A stretch of 64,000 nucleotides of DNA from the NCBI RefSeq assembly GCF_030867095.1, contig NC_081824.1, positions 175,158,933 to 175,222,932 on the forward strand, given 5' to 3'. Position 1 is the stretch's first letter; each line of letters opens with the position of its first letter. Source of the stretch: Alligator mississippiensis. Taxonomy: Eukaryota > Chordata > Crocodylia > Alligatoridae. The translations under genes were made by a program, and so were the position numbers. The notes beneath the pieces are model-generated. The model did no database searches. It was not told the DNA's origin and saw nothing but the letters and a program-made list of their open reading frames with translations. Of the stretch, positions 6,964-59,967 are shown in pieces.

Positions 6964-7931
6964 ATGGTCCCAGCCTCCACGCAGACAGAGCCCTTGCCTC
7001 CAAGCTGCAGGGGCTACCTGGCATGCCTGATGCATACTGGGACCAGGGGCAAAAGCGTTCCCACTTGTGGGAGGTGCTCATTGGTGGAGACTTTGGAGGG
7101 CTGGGTGAGGGAGCTCCAAGAGGAGGTGAACAGGCTGCGAATCATCAAGGAACGCAAGGCGGAGATTGACGCTTACTGCCAGGCCCTGCACCTGGAAAAG
7201 GATGCCATGGAGACTGGGCAGATGAATGGGCTCAAACAAGATACCCCAACTGATAGTATGTGGAAATTGGTGACATCAGGCCTGAAGTCACGACGTGCAT
7301 CAGTTACCCCGCCAATAACCCTGCACAACAGCTACGAAGCTCTTACACCATCAACGGAAGACACATCCAAGCACACCATACTGAAGACAGGACAGGATCA
7401 GATGACCCCAGAAAGCAAACAATGAAGGGTCATCATTGTGGAAGACTCCAAGCTGCAAGGAACAAAAAGAGCCATCTGTTGTCCAGACCCCTTTGCTCAA
7501 GAGTTCTGCTGCCTTCCAGGAGCCACGATTAGAGACGTTATGATGAGGATCCCTAAACTGGTCTACCCTACTGACCAGAACCCCATGCTCCTTGTCCATG
7601 TGGGCACCGATGACATGGCAAGAAATAGCACTGGGAGAATCACGAGAGACTACAAGACCATGGGGGTGTAGCTCAAAGAACTAGGAGCACAAGTGGTCTT
7701 CTCCTCAATCCTCCCAGTCAGAGGTCGTGGTCGTCGGAGAGAGGAGTGCATCAAGGAGGAAAACCACAGGCTTAGGAGATGGTGTCACCACATGGGCTTT
7801 GGATACCTTGGCATTGGTATGCCAAGGTTTAGTTTCAGTGGTCTACATGCAAGGGTATTCATCTCATAACCAGAGGGAAGAAGTTCTTCGTTAAAAGAAT
7901 TGCTGACTTATTGAGGAGGGTTTTAAACTAG
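6964..7931 (+). pseudogene. CR1 ORF1 pseudogene (coiled coil + SGNH esterase)
   Basis: This is the remains of the CR1 ORF1 protein, thought to bind nucleic acid and carry an esterase fold. The N-terminal part keeps STQTEPL, a cysteine pair (CGRC) and a heptad-rich stretch (LEGWVRELQEEVNRLRII) matching the intact copy. The esterase part keeps FCCLPGATIRDV and LLVHVGTDDMAR, but the GDS serine motif reads EDS. In-frame stops lie at 7423-7425 and 7669-7671, and at least one indel near 7.82-7.87 kb changes frame. The C-terminus (RIADLLRRVLN then TAG) is intact and ends in the same T_TTA_AAC plus stop as the young copy. The protein is surely not functional. Confidence 0.85.
7922..7928 (+). promoter_or_regulatory. 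TTTAAAC heptamer at the ORF1 end (old copy)
   Basis: The heptamer is read T_TTA_AAC in the ORF1 frame and is followed at once by the TAG stop at 7929-7931. A G-rich tract (GGGGG at 7940-7944, GGGG at 7946-7949) follows. The -1 frame is open from here into the ORF2 endonuclease domain without an ATG. This matches the layout of the young CR1 and suggests a conserved -1 frameshift site. Confidence 0.55.
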
Positions 7932-17112: not shown

Positions 17113-19330
17113 TTATCTAAACCATTCCAAACAAGCATTTGTGTAATCAGCACCTAGCCTCTTCCAGTGACGGAGATTCCACTGTCTGAGTGACCTGTTC
17201 CAGCCATTACTTACCCTCAGGGCTAAAAAGTTCTTCCTAATGTCCAGCTTAAATCTCTTTTCTTGCAAAATCCATGCTGGCTCTTCCTGATGACATTGGT
17301 TTTCCTTTAGGTGTTTTAAACTAGATTCCTTGAAGAACTGCTCCATCCTCTTTCCAGGTATTGAGGTCAAACTGACTGGTCTACACTTCCCCAGATCCTG
17401 CTTCTTCCCATTCTTAAAGATGGGCATTATATTTGCCCTTTCCCAGTCACCCGCAGACCCATGCAATCTCCACAAGTTCTCATGATAACCAATGGCTCTG
17501 AAATCACCAGGGGTGTGTGAAGCGGGTCCTATTCAATTTGGATTCAGCCCACATCAGGGACAGTGATTCAATTTGTTGATTCAGATCACTGTCCCTGATT
17601 TGATTTGGACATAGACACAGCTTCAAAAGTTTTTTCTACATACCTTGAGGTAGTAGCATGGTTCATGAACTTTGAGATGCTGGGGTGCTTGGAGCGTCCC
17701 ACAGGAGTGCGGGGGGCCCTCCACATGCTTGGCAGCAGGCCTGGAAGTAGACCACAAGTACTTCCGGTCCACTTCCAGGTCTGCCAGGGAGCGTGCTGAG
17801 GGCCCCGCCCCACACACCTCCCCAGCTCGGCGATCGGCTACTGGGGGACATCAGGTGCCCCTCCAGACCCAGGAGGCACCAGTCACCAAGCCGGGAGGGA
17901 GTGCAGGGGGGTCCTCTGCATGCTCCCCGGTGGACCTGGAAGTGGACCATAAGTGCTTCTGGTCCACTTCCAGGTCTGCTGCCGAGTGCACTGGGGAGCC
18001 CCCCACGCTGCTGTGAGACACTCCGTGCGCCCCACCATCACAGTATTCACAAGCCCCTGCTACCTAGAGGGATGTAGAAAAAACATTTAAAGCTGTCTCT
18101 ATGTCCAGACCTCCAAATCTTTCTGAATCTCTCCGAATTGATTCAGAGGGTTCCACTTTGATTCAGAGAGATTAAAGAGTCTCCTGATTCGATTTGTATT
18201 CAGAGATTTGGCCACCGAATCAAGCTGAATCTCTGCCGAATCAAATCAGGGACCAAAACTTCACACAGCCCTAGAAATTACCTCAGCCAATTCCTTCAGT
18301 GCTCTAGGTATATCCCATCCAGCCCTGTTTGAAAGTAATTTCAAGTAACTGACTAAGCAATCCCTAACCTGCTCTACCACTACTCTAGGCTGTTTGCCTC
18401 CTTCCCTATCTTTGCTGCCAACATGACTCATCGTCTGGTATCAAACTTTATTCCTGAAGACTGAATTTAAAAAGGCATTAAACACTTCAGCCTTCTCTGC
18501 ATCCTCCATAACTAGATTGCTTTCGCATACTGTAAGAGACCTACACTTTCTTGGGTCTTCCTCTTACATCTGATATACTTGTAGAATCCCTTGTTATTGC
18601 CTTTTACAACCCTTGCCAGTTACATTTCAAACCATGCCTTGGCCTTCTTGATTTTCAATCTGCATGCCTGTGCAATACTCTTATACTCTTCTCTAGTACT
18701 ATGACATAATTTCCACTTCTTGTAGGAATCCTTTTTTAATTTCAACTCATTGAAGAGATTGTTGTTTATCCAGGCCAGTCTCCTCTTGCACTTCTTTTTC
18801 TTTAGTTGCATTGGGATAGCTTGCTCCTGAACTTTAATATGGCCTCTTTAAAGTACAGCCAACTCTCCTGAACTCCTTTCCTGACCAGACCTGCTTTCCA
18901 GGGGATCCTGCCCCCCCGCCCTCCCCCCAGTTCCTTGAGTTTGTTAAAATCTGCTTTTCTGAAGTCCAGTGTTTTTATTCTGCTGCTATCCTTCCATCCT
19001 TTCCTTAGGGTTTTGAATAGTATCATTTCATGGTCACTGTCACCCAGGATTACTTCCTCCTTCACATTCTCAATTAATACCTGCCTGTTTGTGAGTGGCA
19101 AGTCGAAAGGAGCTTCCTGCCTAGGTGGCCTCCTCACCACCTGTACCAAAAAGTTATCCCCAACACAATCCAAGAACTTGCTGGACTGCCTGCGCACTGC
19201 TGAGTTTCCCTCATAGCAGGTGTCATGAGACCCAGGTTCTGTGATTTGGAAACTTCTGTTAGCTGTTTAAAGAAAGCATCATCCACCTCTTCCTCCTCAT
19301 TTGGTTACTGATAGCAGATGCCCACTGTGT
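17113..19330 (-). pseudogene. CR1 ORF2 pseudogene, antisense
   Basis: On the minus strand, from high to low coordinate, are the endonuclease end (AFFKQLTEVSKS near 19.27 kb, then SSKFLDCVGDNFLVQVVRRP and GDSDHEMILF near 19.1 kb), the linker (KTLDFRKADFNKLKEL), a basic stretch (RRLAWINNNLFNELKLKKDS near 18.75 kb) and 'MEDAEKAEVFNAF' near 18.5 kb. Beyond the hAT insertion are RT motif RANIMPIFKNGKKQ and SLTSIPGKRMEQF near 17.4 kb, then KRFKLDIRKNFLALR near 17.25 kb. The FADD block is absent. Stops, frameshifts, the internal deletion and the hAT insertion make it non-functional. Confidence 0.85.
17508..18273. mobile_element. Non-autonomous hAT element with 8-bp TSD (family H, copy 1)
   Basis: The ends are 15-bp terminal inverted repeats: caggggtgtgtgaag at 17508-17522 and the complement of tagggctgtgtgaag at 18259-18273. 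They are flanked by the 8-bp repeat gaaatcac (17500-17507) and gaaattac (18274-18281), one mismatch apart. YAGGG ends and an 8-bp target duplication are hAT hallmarks. Near the left end is a perfect 15-bp inverted repeat (17553-17567 with 17585-17599), and AATC/GATT-rich sequence marks both ends. No transposase frame is present. The insertion splits the antisense CR1, so it is younger than that LINE. Confidence 0.88.
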
Positions 19331-26439: not shown

Positions 26440-27623
26440 GGAAATGGCTGGAGGATGTCACAATGCTAGACCCACTGCCACTGCCTCTGCTTACACCTGT
26501 GAGGTTCCTGTCCATGAAGGACCACTCACCATCAAGACTTCCACCCAGGTCCAGATTTGGTGCTGTGAAGATGGCAGCTTGCAGGTTCCTTCCAGTGACA
26601 GCCAGGTGGAGCACTGCCTGTGATGTGAGTGCTGCCTCCTGGTGGTGTCTCTCAGGAAACAGGCAAGAGAGCTAGAAGAGGAGGTGGTGAGGCTCCGAAG
26701 CATCCTCTGTTATGAGGAGTTAATTGATTCAATGCTGATGGAGACCTCCAGGACTGTGAAGGAAGAACTGCAAGAGGCAGCGCTAGAGAAGGGAGAGGAC
26801 ATGGACTCCCAGGAAGGTGGAAGCTGGAAGCTTGTGGTCTCTCTGGCAGCAAGCTTCATCTCCACTAGCGGCATTTCATCTGGAGGATGGATATGGAGCC
26901 TTAGCAACAGAGGGAGAGGAGCATGTTCCATCAGTGCAAAAGGACAGGCCAAGCCTCCCCAAGGTGGGAAAGATCGAGACCACCACCACCAAGAGGAAGC
27001 AATGGGTGGTGGTGGTTGGAGACTCCATTCTGCGGGGGATGGAGGGATCCATCTGCTGACCTGACATGTTGTCTCAGGAAGTCTTCTGCTTGCCAGGAGC
27101 CCAGATTCAAGATGTTATGGAGGGATTGCCAAGATTCATCCAGCCCTCTGACTACTACCCCATGCTGCTTATCCATGTGGGCACCAATGACACTGCCAGG
27201 GAAGACCCTGAGCAGATCAAAAATGACTACAGGGCTCTGGGTGAAGGGTTTGGGGGCTCAGGTGGCTCTTCAATCCTTCTGGTCAAGGGAAAGGGATCAG
27301 GCAGGAGCAGGTGCATCCTGAAGTTCATTGCCTGGATGTTCAGGTGGTGTCACCAGCAGGGCTTTGGCTTCTTTGACCACAAGATGATAGTCCAAGAAGA
27401 AGGATTGCTAGAAAGAAATGGGATCCACCTGATGAAGAAAGAGAAGAGCATCTTCACAGACAGGCTCGCTTACCTAGTGAGGGGCTTAAAGGAGGTTCAC
27501 TGGAGAATGGAGATCAAAGCCCTGAGGCAAGTAGGGAAGTGGGTGACCTGGAGGAAGAGCAAGCAGGAGCGGGCAGCAGAGGAGATGTTCTCATTCTTCC
27601 TGAGAAATCCGGGAATTGACTAG
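26440..27623 (+). pseudogene. CR1 ORF1 pseudogene, copy 3
   Basis: The frame beginning near 26443 contains TIKTSTQVQ, equivalent to the STQTEPL block of the other copies. After a stop near 26620 come CECCLLVVSLRKQ and RELEEEVVRLRSILCYEE, the cysteine pair and coiled coil. The esterase part follows after frame changes: VVVVGDSILRGMEGS near 27.02 kb carries the GDS serine motif, LLIHVGTNDTARE near 27.18 kb carries the GTND block, and NGIHLMKKEKSIF near 27.43 kb replaces the usual DGLHLS. The frame runs past the usual C-terminus to TAG at 27621-27623. The TTTAAAC heptamer is not intact here; the matching place reads GGC TTA AAG near 27484. Confidence 0.8.
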
Positions 27624-32449: not shown

Positions 32450-32964
32450 TGGAGTCCTTCTCAGTCCTTGGGCTCCAGCAGCCGCAGAGCCCCCCGCTGA
32501 CCCCCAGCACAGCCGGGGTAAGCAGGGCCCGTGGAGAGAGGGGGTTAACCCCTTAGTGTGTGTGTGGGAGGCGGTGGCTGAGTGGAGCCGGGCCGGGTCA
32601 AGCCCCGCCCAGGCCCCTACTTCGCCCAGCCCCCCAGGGAGCCGCGCGAACAGGCTGCGCAAACAGGCGCGCTTCTCTGGCAGCGCGTGAGTTAGCGCGG
32701 GAGGGTGTGTGGGAGGGCGCCGGACCCTGCCTGCGCACTCCCCAGGGTAGACAGCCCCAGCCGTAGCCAGCCTACCAGAGGCATGACACGGACGGGCACG
32801 CGCCGCACCCCGAGGGTCCCCTTGGGCTCCGCGGCCCCCCCCCCGGCACCTCAGAGACGGCCACCCAGACGGAGCCCCTGGTTCCGGGCTCCACGCAGAC
32901 GGAGCCCCTGGCTCTCGGCTGCGGGGGCTGCCTGTCCCTTTTTCAGGCTCTGGGGCCTGGGAGC
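32450..32964 (+). promoter_or_regulatory. CR1 leader and probable internal promoter, CpG-rich
   Basis: The sequence turns abruptly GC- and CpG-rich at about 32.47 kb, with gagccgggccgggtcaagcc, gccgcgcgaacaggctgcgc and similar runs. It has no TATA element, as expected of a LINE internal promoter and 5' untranslated region. An ORF1-frame stop (TAG 32764-32766) bounds the open frame, which then runs without an ATG to 32965. A run of ten C at 32835-32844 separates an upstream ATG (32783) from the ORF1 frame. Confidence 0.55.
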
Positions 32965-33879
32965 ATGGCGACCTCCCCTTGCGGGGTCTGCTCCCTTTTG
33001 GGGTCTCTGGCACGCCAGCTGGAGGAGCTCCAGGCCACAGTCCACAGACTGCGTGCCATCAGGGACTGCGAGCAGGAGATAGACTCCTACTGCCAGGCCC
33101 TTCTCCCCTGGGAGGCAGAGGGTAGATCACAGTCTCCCTCCACGCCAAAGGAGGACTCTGGGACCTCCTGCTGTGTCCAGCCAGGGGCATGGAGCAAGGA
33201 GGTCAAGGGCCCTAAGGCCCGCCGCACCAAGGCCCCTCCCCCACCAGAACTGAGCAACAGGTACACACCTCTTGCTGCCCCAGCAGAGCCTGCTGAGTTG
33301 CAGTTAGGCCCATGTTGCCTGTGGGGGCCGGCAACTCCCACCCCTGCTCTCCCCAAGACAAAACGTAAGGTGTTTGTTGTGGGAGACTCCCTCCTGAGGG
33401 GGACAGAGGGGCCAATCTGCCACCCCGACCCCTTAGCCCGGCAAGTCTGCTGCTTCCCAGGGGCCCGCATCCGGGACATTGCGGAGAGGATCCCCAAGCT
33501 CCTCAAACCCACAGACCACTATCCCATGCTCCTTATTCATGTGGGCACCAATGACACGGCTCGGAGCACTCCCAGCCGGGTCATGAGGCGCTACAGGGAT
33601 TTGGGAGCGGGGCTTAAGGGTCTGGGGGCAAAGGTGGTGTTCTCGTCAATCCTCCCAGTCTCAGGCTATGGGCTGAGAAGGGACAGGAGGATCTATGTGG
33701 TCAACCAAAGACTGCGGCGCTGGTGTCATCAGGAAGGCTTTGGCTTTCATGACCACAGCCCGCTCTTTGGCGAGAGAGGCAGTGAGCTGCTGGGAAGAGA
33801 TGGTCTCCACCTCTCTCCCCTAGGAAGGAGGCTCTTCTCAGCCAGACTGGCTGACCTGCTCCACCAGGCTTTAAACTAA
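32965..33879 (+). CDS. CR1 ORF1 protein, open (zinc-knuckle/coiled coil + SGNH esterase)
   Basis: This encodes 304 aa from the first in-frame ATG; the frame is open from 32767. Conserved sequence upstream of this ATG (TQTEPL repeats and a cysteine pair CGGC at 32920-32931) shows that the true start is probably farther 5'. Residues 6-9 give a second cysteine pair (CGVC), followed by a heptad-rich segment at about 11-33. Residues 136-300 form the SGNH/GDSL-like esterase domain known in CR1 ORF1: serine in GDSLLRG (S142), GTND at 194-197, and the Asp/His pair in DGLHLS (D279, H282). The ending QALN-TAA contains the T_TTA_AAC heptamer. It acts as the element's RNA-associated protein by family knowledge; the role of the esterase is unsettled. 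Confidence 0.9.
   Translation: MATSPCGVCSLLGSLARQLEELQATVHRLRAIRDCEQEIDSYCQALLPWEAEGRSQSPSTPKEDSGTSCCVQPGAWSKEVKGPKARRTKAPPPPELSNRYTPLAAPAEPAELQLGPCCLWGPATPTPALPKTKRKVFVVGDSLLRGTEGPICHPDPLARQVCCFPGARIRDIAERIPKLLKPTDHYPMLLIHVGTNDTARSTPSRVMRRYRDLGAGLKGLGAKVVFSSILPVSGYGLRRDRRIYVVNQRLRRWCHQEGFGFHDHSPLFGERGSELLGRDGLHLSPLGRRLFSARLADLLHQALN
33870..33876 (+). promoter_or_regulatory. Candidate -1 frameshift heptamer U_UUA_AAC
   Basis: In the ORF1 frame the codons are GCT TTA AAC TAA, so the heptamer T_TTA_AAC has the X_XXY_YYZ form and phase needed for tandem -1 slippage. ORF1 stops immediately after it (33877-33879). Slippage would continue in the ORF2 frame, which has no stop between here and the ORF2 stop at 36789-36791. 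Possible stimulators downstream are G runs at 33887-33891 and 33894-33899 and a short stem AGTCC (33879-33883) with GGACT (33898-33902). This heptamer is a well-known efficient slippery site in other systems. Its use here is inferred. Confidence 0.6.
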
Positions 33880-33884
33880 GTCCG

Positions 33885-36791
33885 TTGGGGGACGGGGGGA
33901 CTACCGCCACTGCTGGCCCGCTGAGCAATCCTTGCAAAGCCAGCGGATCACAGCACTCAAGGGAGCCCACCCCAGCCCCAGCCCTGGTAAAATCTGTGGG
34001 CAAGGAAGGAGCCCCCCAGGGGGCACTTGCCTGCCTCTACACTAATGCCAGGAGCTTGGGGAATAAGCAGGAGGAACTCATCCTCCTGCTCAGTGCAAAC
34101 AATTACCATGTCATAGGGATAACGGAGACCTGGTGGGACTCCACCCATGACTGGACCACGGGGATAGATGGCTATACCCTGTACAGGAGGGATCGTGTAG
34201 AGAAAAGGGGCAGGGGTGTAGCTGTCTATGTTAAGGAAAGCTACACGTCCCTGCAAGCCGATATTGGCGACCAGGGTGGACGGCTGGAGACCCTCTGGGT
34301 TAAAATCCATGGGGAACACGGCACAGGGGACACAATGGTGGGAGTCTATTACAGACCTCCCACCCAAAGTCCTGAGCTAGACCAGGAGTTTGCCCAGGAA
34401 CTGGCTGAGGCAGCTTGCTCCAGGACCATGGTTGTCATGGGTGACTTCAATTACCCGGACATCTCGTGGGAGGATCGCTCAGCAAAATCTGAGCGGTCAC
34501 AGAGCTTCCTCTCGTGCGTGGATGACCTCTACCTGACTCAAGAAGTCTATGGGCCAACGAGAGGCAAAGCGCTGCTTGACCTGGTACTGGCTACTGGGGA
34601 TGACCTAGTCGGCGACCAACTGATCGATGGGAAGCTGGGTGACAGCGACCACGAGCTGATCACCTTCACCATCCGCCGAAAAGCTGGCAAGTCAGTCAGC
34701 AACACGCAAGTCCTTGACTTCAGGAAAGCCGACTTTGACAAGCTCAGGAGGCTTGTCAGTGAGGCCCTAAGGGACCATGACCATGGGGAGAGGGGAGTTC
34801 AAGAAGAGTGGTTGTTCCTCAAGGGAGCGATCCTCAATGCACAAACTAAGTCTATTCCATCTCGGAGGAAAGGCAGCAAGAGGGCACAGCAGCTCCCCTG
34901 GCTCTCCAGGGACCTAGCAGACCTCCTGAGGCTAAAAAGAAAGGCCTACAAAGGATGGAGGATGGGAGTCACCTCCAAGGAGGATTATTCTGCACTGGTC
35001 CGGTCCTGTAGGGAGCAGACCAGGAAAGCCAAGGCTGCAACTGAACTCCAGCTAGCTTTGAGCATCAAGGACAATAAAAAGTCCTTTTTCAGATATGTGG
35101 GGAGCCGGAGGAAAAGCAGGGGCAACGTTGGACCCCTGCTGAACCAGATGGGGCAACTGACAACTGACGCCCAGGAAAAAGCCAACCTATTAAATAGGTA
35201 CTTTGCGTCGGTCTTTCATCAGCCCCATGGGACGCCCGTGCCCGCTACAGGGCCGGGAAGTCCGGGTGAGGGTGATCCCCTGCCCTCCATTAATGCTGAC
35301 TTTGTGAAGGAACATCTTGAGAAGCTGGATACCTTCAAGTCAGCTGGCCCTGACAATCTTCACCCCAGGGTACTCAAGGAGCTGGCGAGCATCATAGCCC
35401 AGCCTCTAGCGCGGATCTTTGAAAACTCTTGGCGCTCTGGTGTAGTGCCCGAAGACTGGAAGAAGGCCAACGTGGTGCCTATCTTCAAGAAAGGGAGGAA
35501 AGTGGATCCGGCTAACTATAGGCCCATCAGCCTGACTTCTATCCCGGGGAAGATCTTAGAAAAGTTTATTAAGGAGGCCATCCTTAATGGACTGGCCGAC
35601 GCCAACATCTTAAGGGATAGCCAGCACGGGTTTGTTGCGGGTAGGTCTTGCTTGACCAATCTCATTTCCTTCTATGACCAGGTGACCTATCACCTGGACA
35701 AGGGAGATGAGATTGATGTCATATATCTTGACTTCAAAAAAGCCTTCGATCTGGTGTCCCACGATCGTCTCTTGGAGAAACTGGCCAATTGTCGCCTTGG
35801 GTCCTCCACGATCCGCTGGCTGGAAAATTGGCTCCGGGGTCGGACCCAGAGGGTAGTAACTGATGGAAGTCACTCATCGTGGTGTCCTGTGACCAGTGGG
35901 GTCCCCCAGGGCTCTGTCCTTGGACCCATACTGTTCAACATCTTCATTAATGATGTGGACACTGGAGTCAGAAGCGGACTGGCCAAGTTCGCAGATGACA
36001 CCAAACTTTGGGGCAAAGCATCCACACCAGAAGACAGGCGGATGATCCAGGCTGACCTGGACAGGCTCAGCAAGTGGGCAGACGAGAATCTGATGGTGTT
36101 CAACGCCGATAAATGCAAGGTTCTCCACCTTGGGAAAAAAACCCTGCAGCATCCTTATAGGCTCGGCAGTGCTATGTTGGCTAGCACTATGGAAGAAAGA
36201 GACTTGGGGGTCATCATTGACCACAAGATGAACATGAGCCTGCAATGCGATGCTGCGGCTAGTAAAGCGACCAAAACGCTGGCTTGCATCCATAGATGCT
36301 TCTCAAGCAAATCCCGGGACGTCATTCTCCCCCTGTACTCGGCCTTGGTGAGGCAGCAGCTGGAGTACTGCGTCCAGTTTTGGGCTCCACAATTCAAAAA
36401 GGATGTGGAGAAGCTCGAGAGAGTCCAGAGAAGAGCCACGCGCATGATCAGAGGTCAGGGAAGCAGACCCTACGATGACAGGCTGAGAGCCCTGGGACTC
36501 TTTAGCCTGGAAAAGCGCAGGCTCAGGGGTGATCTGATGGCCATCTACAAGTTTATCAGGGGTGACCACCAGTATCTAGGGGAACGTTTGTTCACCAGAG
36601 CGGCCCAAGGGATGACGAGGTCGAATGGTCACAAACTACTACAAGACCGTTTCAGGCTGGACATAAGGAAGAATTTCTTTACTGTCCGAGCCCCCAAGGT
36701 CTGGAACAGCCTGCCACCGGAGGTCGTTCAAGCGCCTTCATTGAACACCTTCAAGATGAAACTGGATGCTTATCTTGCTGGGATCCTATGA
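33885..36791 (+). CDS. CR1 ORF2 replicase, open (AP endonuclease + reverse transcriptase)
   Basis: About 968 codons counted from TTG at 33885, a conventional marker and not a proven start. There is no ATG before the endonuclease domain, so a -1 fusion to ORF1 or another non-standard start is likely. Counting from that TTG, the AP-endonuclease motifs are N54 (TNARSL), E81 (ITETWW), Y155-156 (VYYRPP), D187/N189 (GDFN) and D255/H256 (SDHE). Reverse-transcriptase motifs are NVVPIFKKG near 529, PANYRPISL, QHGFVAGRSCLTNL, catalytic D616 (YLDFKKAFD), GVPQGSVLGP near 672 and FADD at 702-705. The C-terminal CR1 block has RQQLEYC and WAPQF where other copies here have RPQLEYC and WAPHF. Full family length. 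Catalytic residues are intact, but activity is not shown. Confidence 0.92.
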   Translation: MGDGGTTATAGPLSNPCKASGSQHSREPTPAPALVKSVGKEGAPQGALACLYTNARSLGNKQEELILLLSANNYHVIGITETWWDSTHDWTTGIDGYTLYRRDRVEKRGRGVAVYVKESYTSLQADIGDQGGRLETLWVKIHGEHGTGDTMVGVYYRPPTQSPELDQEFAQELAEAACSRTMVVMGDFNYPDISWEDRSAKSERSQSFLSCVDDLYLTQEVYGPTRGKALLDLVLATGDDLVGDQLIDGKLGDSDHELITFTIRRKAGKSVSNTQVLDFRKADFDKLRRLVSEALRDHDHGERGVQEEWLFLKGAILNAQTKSIPSRRKGSKRAQQLPWLSRDLADLLRLKRKAYKGWRMGVTSKEDYSALVRSCREQTRKAKAATELQLALSIKDNKKSFFRYVGSRRKSRGNVGPLLNQMGQLTTDAQEKANLLNRYFASVFHQPHGTPVPATGPGSPGEGDPLPSINADFVKEHLEKLDTFKSAGPDNLHPRVLKELASIIAQPLARIFENSWRSGVVPEDWKKANVVPIFKKGRKVDPANYRPISLTSIPGKILEKFIKEAILNGLADANILRDSQHGFVAGRSCLTNLISFYDQVTYHLDKGDEIDVIYLDFKKAFDLVSHDRLLEKLANCRLGSSTIRWLENWLRGRTQRVVTDGSHSSWCPVTSGVPQGSVLGPILFNIFINDVDTGVRSGLAKFADDTKLWGKASTPEDRRMIQADLDRLSKWADENLMVFNADKCKVLHLGKKTLQHPYRLGSAMLASTMEERDLGVIIDHKMNMSLQCDAAASKATKTLACIHRCFSSKSRDVILPLYSALVRQQLEYCVQFWAPQFKKDVEKLERVQRRATRMIRGQGSRPYDDRLRALGLFSLEKRRLRGDLMAIYKFIRGDHQYLGERLFTRAAQGMTRSNGHKLLQDRFRLDIRKNFFTVRAPKVWNSLPPEVVQAPSLNTFKMKLDAYLAGIL

Positions 36792-59206: not shown

Positions 59207-59967
59207 AAAAAAAAAAACCCGCAGCATCCTTATAGGCTCGGCAGTGCTATGTTGGTTAGCACTATGGAAGAAAGAGACTTGGGGGTCATCATTGACCACA
59301 AGATGAACATGAGCCTGCAATGCGATGCTGCGGCTAGTAAAGCGACCAAAACTCTGGCTTGCATCCATAGATGCTTCTCAAGCAAATCCCGGGACGTCAT
59401 TCTCCCCCTGTACTCGGCCTTAGTGAGGCCGCAGCTGGAGTACTGCGTCCAGTTTTGGGCTCCACATTTCAAAAAGGATGTGGAGAAGCTTGAGAGAGTC
59501 CAGAGAAGAGCCACACGCATGATCAGAGGTCAGGGAAGCAGACCCTACGATGACAGGCTGAGAGCCCTGGGGCTCTTTAGCCTGGAAAAGCGCAGGCTCA
59601 GGGGTGATCTGATGGCCACCTACAAGTTTATCAGGGGTGACCACCAGTATCTGGGGGAACGTTTGTTCACCAGAGAGCCCCAAGGGATGACGAGGACGAA
59701 TGGTCACAAACTACTACAAGATCGTTTCAGGCTGGACATAAGGAAGAATTTCTTTACTGTCCGAGCCCCCAAGGTCTGGAACAGCCTGCCACTGGAGGTC
59801 GTTCAAGCGCCTTCATTGAACACCTTCAAGATGAAACTGGATGCTTATCTTGCTGGGATCCTATGACCCCAGCTGACGTCCTGCCCTTTGGGCGGGGGGC
59901 TGGACTCGATGATCTTCCGAGGTCCCTTCCAGCCCTAATGTCTATGAAATCTATGAAATCTATGAAA
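59207..59967 (+). mobile_element. Young 5'-truncated CR1 3' end
   Basis: From an A-rich run at 59207 the sequence matches the last 745 bp or so of the full-length CR1 (from about 36142), with about 17 mismatches, roughly 2.3%. It ends with three exact tctatgaaa units (59941-59967). This is a typical truncated insertion of the same young subfamily. It directly abuts the Gypsy LTR region. Confidence 0.93.
59219..59866 (+). pseudogene. CR1 ORF2 C-terminal remnant, frame open
   Basis: The last 210 or so codons of ORF2 are open to the stop at 59864-59866. They include [38 protein letters not shown] and [19 protein letters not shown]. The endonuclease and RT domains are absent, so it cannot function. 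The open frame runs on 5' into flanking DNA by chance. It keeps the RPQLEYC and WAPHF residues that differ in the full-length copy. Confidence 0.9.

Follow-up and report, generated by a model that had tools for sequence, protein, structure and literature searches.

How does a LINE express its second gene? The question is raised by a CR1 element in a 64,000-nucleotide stretch of the Alligator mississippiensis genome (hereafter the window; NC_081824.1, positions 175,158,933 to 175,222,932), whose two long reading frames, ORF1 and ORF2, meet at a slippery heptamer. On the basis of the sequence comparisons described here, we consider it very probable that -1 programmed ribosomal frameshifting at this junction makes the CR1 replicase as an ORF1-ORF2 fusion. 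This reading was put forward in a preliminary description of the same DNA, and it has since come through most of the sequence-level tests that could have refuted it. The accompanying view of U_UUA_AAC as an efficient slippery heptamer is backed by excerpts of PMC5009743, which count it among the heptamers on which mammalian ribosomes shift most readily.

A search of the open-access literature, which did not cover the original CR1 papers, returned no report of frameshifting in CR1. Frameshifting in these elements would offer a new solution to second-gene expression in LINEs and, if conserved, would give a defined protein product together with a short testable signal.

Results

The ORF1-ORF2 junction in the window

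The window element is a young CR1, a name that we take from the preliminary description and from its relatives in turtles, birds and lizards. Its ORF1 carries the GDSL/SGNH esterase domain characteristic of the CR1 clade (PF13472, E 1.4e-11), and its ORF2 combines an APE-type endonuclease with a reverse transcriptase (PF03372, PF14529, PF00078) and matches LINE-1 ORF2p in the PDB (E 3.9e-43). As had been described, ORF1 ends GCT TTA AAC TAA (GCT at 33868-33870), which places a heptamer of the form X_XXY_YYZ in 0-frame phase directly before the stop (Table 1). The accompanying statement that ORF2 lies in the -1 frame, runs open to its end and has no ATG ahead of the endonuclease (EN) also proved correct: the frame is free of stops from 33855 to 34340, where the other two frames have 8 and 6, and its first in-frame ATG is at 34335, residue 161 of the open frame and inside EN, whose first strand is placed at residues 57-64 by a structure model. 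ORF2 is thus open from the slip site and lacks a start of its own in this copy; its linker, modelled with low confidence, is probably disordered.

Given the residues A-L-N, the chance of finding GCT TTA AAC is p 0.0055 under the element's own codon use, in which TTA makes up 6 of 150 Leu codons. Within the window TTTAAACTA was observed three times against 0.5 expected, two of these occurrences being CR1 junctions and the third, at 17315, not.

Table 1. Coordinates of CR1 junction features in the window; the first six rows belong to the family A copy.
Feature	Position	Strand	Remarks
CR1 ORF1	32767..33879	+	Measured from stop to stop; contains a GDSL/SGNH esterase domain; A-L-N directly before the stop
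Slippery heptamer T_TTA_AAC	33870..33876	+	In ORF1 phase; common to the five sampled alligator CR1 families
ORF1 stop TAA	33877..33879	+	Adjoins the heptamer
CR1 ORF2 open frame	33855..36791	+	Measured from stop to stop, in -1 relative to ORF1; bears endonuclease and reverse transcriptase
Linker in the -1 frame, ahead of EN	33877..34019	+	Without in-frame ATG
G-rich element G5-AC-G6	33887..33899	+	From 10 nt past the heptamer; candidate stimulator
Family B copy	7922..7931	+	Heptamer TTTAAAC, stop TAG, phase as in the family A copy
Family C copy	27480..27500	+	Decayed junction, GGCTTAAAGGAG

Conservation of the junction in alligator and other vertebrates

Junctions were compared across five CR1 families (A-E), with copies fetched from the alligator genome; the 22 family A rows include the window's own copy. 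Because scans of viral contigs and of other genome contig sets found no CR1, the DNA comparison is one within the alligator genome, and other species enter through their proteins. A sample of 21 random 10-kb alligator stretches contained one CR1 (L012), truncated and without a junction.

The heptamer, its phase, the adjacent stop (TAA or TAG) and an ORF2 in -1 were common to all five families, the site conservation expected of -1 frameshifting and implied by the preliminary reading. The exact heptamer was present in 22/22 rows of family A, 15/21 of B, 44/45 of D and 20/21 of E, and TTTAAAC was kept in 15/20 fetched relatives of the window's family C copy; the stop that follows is TAA in family A and TAG in the majority rows of B-E. 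All nine columns of the heptamer and the following TA are invariant among the five families, compared with 17 of 54 in the 54 nt upstream, where the families are 44-78% identical to one another. All five families encode the Leu at the shift site as TTA, whereas an aligned Leu position five codons earlier is CTG, TTG, CTA, CTC and CTC, four different codons in five families. Family E had been considered an exception on account of one copy that reads TCTAAAC (L059), a view rejected when 20 further copies showed L059 to be decayed. A strict open-frame test was passed by only 6/21 family E copies.

Outside alligator, where the evidence consists of proteins only, Leu-Asn-stop is also how ORF1 ends in turtles, birds, lizards and frogs. 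LN forms the C-terminal end in 59 of 94 ORF1 homologues and is kept in a further four that read through a lost stop; it has been lost at the ORF1 end in three (P0198, P0199, P0206). Five distant ORF1s, 31-34% identical (P0058, P0059, P0189-P0191), end in LN-stop. On the ORF2 side, seven of the 120 proteins listed, six from storks and one from a lizard, have F-K-L in the open frame 57-91 residues before EN, and only T_TTA_AA(C/T)_stop fits these seven if the 0-frame there reads LN-stop, which is assumed rather than seen. Taken together, the proteins support the same slip site for the CR1 of turtles, birds, lizards and frogs.

The linker and alternative explanations of the junction

Conservation of the trans-frame peptide was found between alligator family C and turtle. 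When translated in the -1 frame, the linker of one family C copy (L042) scored 107 against the turtle ORF2 linker, the best of 1000 shuffles reaching 56 and the other two frames 20 and 29, and -1 was the best-scoring frame against the turtle linker in 15/20 family C copies. The sequence PG[D/E]GDQSPEVSG is common to both linkers, shortly past FKL and ahead of the turtle ATG. In turtle, moreover, nine observed residues of a 0-frame read-through (P0017) and nine of an ORF2 linker (P0095) were compatible with a single DNA sequence only when set in register at offset -1, which gave 16 solutions; 20 alternative frame-and-slide combinations gave none. Six pairs of linkers from lizard, stork, turtle and families A and D gave no mutual alignment above shuffles, and a within-family test of the family D linker in the -1 frame (shared N:S 14:7 versus singletons 37:6) is only suggestive of selection on that frame.

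These linkers also bear on whether ORF2 starts at an in-frame ATG past the ORF1 stop, since a conserved ATG of this kind had been named in advance as evidence against frameshifting. Linker ATGs do occur: turtle ORF2s are annotated from MSVRGG, at an ATG 26 residues before EN that is the only linker ATG of the turtle protein aligned with family C, and in family B two places in the linker carry an ATG (in 8/21 and 12/21 copies). The family B ATG just past the stop may be a product of CpG decay, since the 21 copies include both GCATGTC (7) and GCACATC (5); the second (12/21) may be genuine. No conserved ATG was found in families A, C, D or E, however. There is none before EN in the window copy, in 20/21 readable copies of family A or in the majority rows of C and E, and none in the linker of 35/36 readable family D copies. 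At the place of the turtle ATG, the family C majority row has no ATG, and 11 of the 120 ORF2 proteins listed are annotated from MGNKQ, inside EN, so that a linker ATG as the start of ORF2 appears extremely unlikely. Separate production of ORF2 by termination-reinitiation, or by internal entry at a non-AUG linker codon, would sit well with the closeness of the ORF1 stop to ORF2 and with the dependence of ORF2 translation on ORF1 translation in LINE-1 and SART1 (excerpts of PMC2881922). Such a route would need neither the heptamer, nor the TTA codon, nor -1-frame conservation from the slip point, and the first few linker codons contain no near-cognate start common to families A-E; we regard it as quite improbable.

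A further explanation is that Leu-Asn-stop is kept for a function of the ORF1 C-terminus and that the heptamer is its by-product, and in an alignment of 16 ORF1 rows, which share 30-48% identity with the window ORF1, LN is indeed invariant. With six Leu codons and a free preceding base available, however, T_TTA_AAC is nevertheless used in 5/5 families, and the nearby Leu column varies in codon across the same five. These families also have ORF2 in -1, with the family C linker conserved in that frame, and we find a by-product origin very hard to credit.

Sequences downstream of the heptamer

Two G runs and a possible AGTCC/GGACT stem had been proposed to follow the slip site. The runs are real (33887-33891 and 33894-33899), and in most copies of families A-E the G-tract starts 10-12 nt past the heptamer, beyond the usual spacer of 5-9 nt after a slippery site. 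The stem can be drawn but was rejected as a stimulator, since the 124 nt past the heptamer in the window fold no better than shuffles (z -0.68). Across eight copies and three lengths, nested folds were mostly not beyond shuffles (z -2.5 to +2.2), and among nested folds no convincing RNA fold was found after the heptamer. A G-quadruplex was rejected as a general stimulator, four runs of at least three G being present only in two family D copies among the eight examined. At its distance of some 10-12 nt, the G-tract itself is a candidate stimulator that may aid slippage.

Discussion

In the mechanism we propose for the CR1 junction, most ribosomes on CR1 RNA would end at the TAA or TAG past the heptamer and release the ORF1 product, a zinc-finger-like and esterase protein, while a minority would slip from TTA_AAC to TTT_AAA and continue as F-K-L. 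The slipped ribosomes would make an ORF1-ORF2 fusion bearing the endonuclease and reverse transcriptase, CR1's replicase, in a scheme that would amount to gag/gag-pol logic within a LINE. The occurrence and rate of slippage are predictions, as is a fusion that works uncleaved. Annotation would change, with ORF2 beginning as an ORF1 fusion and not at a Met, and this kind of non-LTR retrotransposon would join the genomes that make their replicase by -1 frameshifting. We lean slightly towards a broader proposal, in which the CR1 lineage of vertebrates as a whole, and probably the CR1 of other animals, would make its replicase solely as a -1 frameshift fusion at U_UUA_AAC, helped by a G-rich element (possibly quadruplex-forming or protein-bound) about 10-12 nt downstream. 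If this is true of the whole lineage, LINEs have converged on the gag-pol solution.

The arterivirus -1 site, like the one proposed for CR1, has a stop right after the slip site. Coronaviruses use the same U_UUA_AAC between ORF1a and ORF1b (SARS-CoV-2; excerpts of PMC8915115). Unlike these viral sites, the CR1 site belongs to a cellular LINE and is followed by a G-tract at about 10-12 nt in place of a recognised pseudoknot, the folds examined being nested ones. In retroviral and LTR-retrotransposon gag-pol, as in CR1, the replicase lies in -1 after a structural or RNA-binding protein, although CR1 ORF1 is an esterase protein and, unlike gag-pol elements, the CR1 family has to our knowledge no LTR, protease or integrase. 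A 2003 survey of 51 animal LTR elements placed pol in -1 in 28 of them (excerpts of PMC5009743). LINE-1 and SART1 share a bicistronic RNA with CR1 (excerpts of PMC2881922), but there ORF2 is believed to be a separate product, whereas for CR1 we infer a frameshift fusion. For HeT-A and TART, the Drosophila telomeric non-LTR elements, frameshifting or other recoding is considered in excerpts of PMC5009743, according to which HeT-A frameshifting serves its Gag and a TART start codon lies 37 nt past the stop, both unlike CR1.

The ORF1/ORF2 junction of the window element

The CR1-type LINE in the window, part of a genome of 2.35 Gb, has an ORF1 that closes with the codons CAG GCT TTA AAC TAA. As the preliminary description had it, T_TTA_AAC stands in slippery phase next to the stop and ORF2 occupies the -1 frame; these features lie at 33870-33879 and 33855-36791. 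Its statement that no ATG precedes the ORF2 endonuclease likewise holds for this copy: the earliest ATG in this frame, at 34335, encodes residue 161 and falls well within an endonuclease whose first strand is placed at residues 57-64 by a structure model (mean pLDDT 72.8, 13 sequences) in which residues 1-55 have pLDDT below 50. Given the position of that ATG, initiation at a separate AUG would hardly yield a working endonuclease from the window copy.

Features of the CR1 junctions in the window
Feature	Position	Remarks
CR1-type LINE (family A)	32767-36791	ORF1 with GDSL/SGNH esterase; ORF2 with APE endonuclease and reverse transcriptase
Heptamer T_TTA_AAC	33870-33876	ORF1 phase
ORF1 stop TAA	33877-33879	
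ORF2 open frame	33855-36791	-1 frame relative to ORF1
Family B copy, junction	7922-7931	heptamer kept, with TAG in phase

In the stretch 32767-32965, the first ATG of ORF1 is residue 67, downstream of the first CxxC pair, and the Met start of P0001, an alligator ORF1 protein 90% identical to it, lies further upstream; the window copy may therefore be without a normal ORF1 start.

Conservation of the heptamer in five alligator CR1 families

The preliminary description had proposed aligning the junction across CR1 subfamilies, and in the five alligator families compared (A, that of the window element, to E) heptamer, phase and stop are all kept. Two diverged copies, of families B and C, also lie in the window, the latter with a decayed junction. 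The exact heptamer is found in 22/22 rows of family A and 15/21 of family B (window copies included), 15/20 of family C (decayed window copy left out) and 20/21 of family E, in DNA-search samples that favour well-kept copies because each list holds the best-scoring 40 of 4775 (A), 449 (B), 4734 (C) or 2733 (E) candidates, with 13, 20, 20 and 20, respectively, fetched of the 39 further places listed for each. It is also found in 44 of 45 rows of family D, which came from an ORF1 protein search of the genome (121 matches from 19,786 candidates; 54 fetched, of which 45 are the D rows, 8 belong to A and one is the first copy of E) biased toward copies with an intact ORF1 end.

Across the families, the heptamer and the following TA are invariant in 9/9 columns, against 17/54 columns in the 54 nt upstream, where identity between families is 44-78%. 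Every family uses TTA for the shift-site Leu; in another Leu column, five codons further 5', the codons are CTG, TTG, CTA, CTC and CTC. Family A is young and large, since its first-look candidates are so numerous and since, apart from the window's own match (100%), the scored places are 97-98% identical over the junction. A 5'-truncated 3'-end piece of the same family, 97.6% identical, lies at 59211-59964.

The linker read in the -1 frame

To judge from its sequence, the linker between heptamer and endonuclease is translated in the -1 frame. The majority row of family C reads FKLGSPGDGDQSPEVSG... in this frame, and the turtle ORF2 protein P0095 (Lepidochelys kempii) has SPGEGDQSPEVSG... An unaltered family C copy (L042) scores 107 against the P0095 linker in the -1 frame versus 20 and 29 in the others, and none of 1000 shuffles exceeds 56. 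Of 20 family C copies, 15 have their highest score in the -1 frame, including L037 and L049 with lower scores, and the exceptions (L031, L033, L036, L040, L046) start in another frame or switch frame midway. For P0017, a Caretta 0-frame read-through, and the Lepidochelys linker, one common DNA is possible only at offset -1 and in register. With nine observed residues from either protein, this arrangement has 16 solutions; when the three frame offsets are combined with slides of as many as 3 residues, the 20 remaining combinations have none. P0066 (Natator) is compatible with the turtle linker only if one linker residue is changed. Stork and crane linkers, compared as protein without reference to the frame of the crane ORF1, align with a score of 111 (maximum 59 in 2000 shuffles).

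The frame is open to the endonuclease in 21/22 family A and 35/45 family D copies, and only 6/21 family E copies pass the strict open-frame test. A weaker point comes from family D, where N:S in the -1 frame is 14:7 for polymorphisms in at least 3 copies versus 37:6 for singletons, a shift in the direction expected of purifying selection, albeit in small numbers; the other two frames go in the opposite direction (16:5 versus 27:14 and 18:1 versus 27:15).

Some lineages may also start ORF2 within the linker, because turtle ORF2s and family B have ATGs there. The turtle ATG (MSVRGG) lies 3' of the stretch conserved with family C and is a non-ATG codon in the alligator row. Among the family B copies (L110-L129 and the window copy), 8/21 have an ATG two bases past the ORF1 stop and 12/21 a second one further downstream; the former looks to be partly CpG decay.

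ORF1 ends and FKL in other vertebrates

Beyond alligator, the evidence consists of protein records. Leu-Asn (LN) is the C-terminal end of 59 of 94 ORF1 homologues, among them those of turtles, birds, lizards and frogs, and is preceded by A (51), Y (5), T (2) or L (1). Four have lost the stop but retain LN (P0017, P0051, P0054, P0066), three have lost LN at this place (P0198, P0199, P0206), and the remaining 28 end elsewhere, being truncated, spliced, deleted or fused. The site may predate the vertebrates, as distant ORF1-like proteins (P0058, P0059, P0189-P0191, P0207) likewise have LLN or YLN as their last residues ahead of a stop.

FKL, the -1-frame reading after a slip, followed by a G-E-G motif occurs in seven ORF2 proteins (wood stork, six; a wall lizard, one) among the 120 matches listed of 209; the endonuclease follows after 91 (stork) or 57 residues (lizard), with no stop between. 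If the 0 frame reads L-N-stop, the underlying DNA could only be T_TTA_AA(C/T) plus stop.

A candidate -1 frameshift and its downstream signal

The simplest account of the junction is programmed -1 frameshifting, favoured by the recurrent heptamer, its fixed phase, the adjacent stop and the -1 position of ORF2, as well as by a linker whose -1 frame is conserved from near the slip point and by the lack of a conserved ATG. Ribosomes would slip by -1 at T_TTA_AAC, an event that we infer together with its rate, and the product would be an ORF1-ORF2 fusion protein. On mammalian ribosomes, few heptamers are as slippery as U_UUA_AAC (PMC5009743, the available part of whose text does not name CR1). Among the titles and abstract openings listed from the open-access literature (in part the top 15-20 of 768, 21 or 101 matches), none reports frameshifting in CR1; the early descriptions (Haas 1997; Kajikawa 1997; as cited in PMC4316615) may contain a remark on it.

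A putative stimulator would lie downstream. In eight copies, segments of 50, 80 and 120 nt immediately 3' of the heptamer folded with z from -2.5 to +2.2 against shuffles. The first G run begins 10-11 nt past the heptamer in 21/22 family A and 20/21 family E rows, at 10-12 nt in 43/45 family D rows, and, among rows with exact site and stop, at 11-12 nt in 13/15 of family B and 10-12 nt in 10/13 of family C. The G fraction from +10 to +23 is 0.65 (B), 0.53 (C) and 0.76 (D), versus 0.22, 0.37 and 0.33 further on. Quadruplexes stimulate -1 frameshifting in some cases (Yu 2014, as cited in PMC8915115); among the eight copies examined, only those of family D have a canonical quadruplex motif. Family D loci such as L088 and L053 carry four runs of at least 3 G in about 27 nt, 10-37 nt after the heptamer.

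The CR1 ORF1 esterase was also met within annotated host-gene isoforms (NUBP1, shisa-4, HAUS7 and steryl-sulfatase) from turtles and a monitor lizard (P0022, P0052, P0053, P0192), reflecting either exonisation or an annotation artefact.
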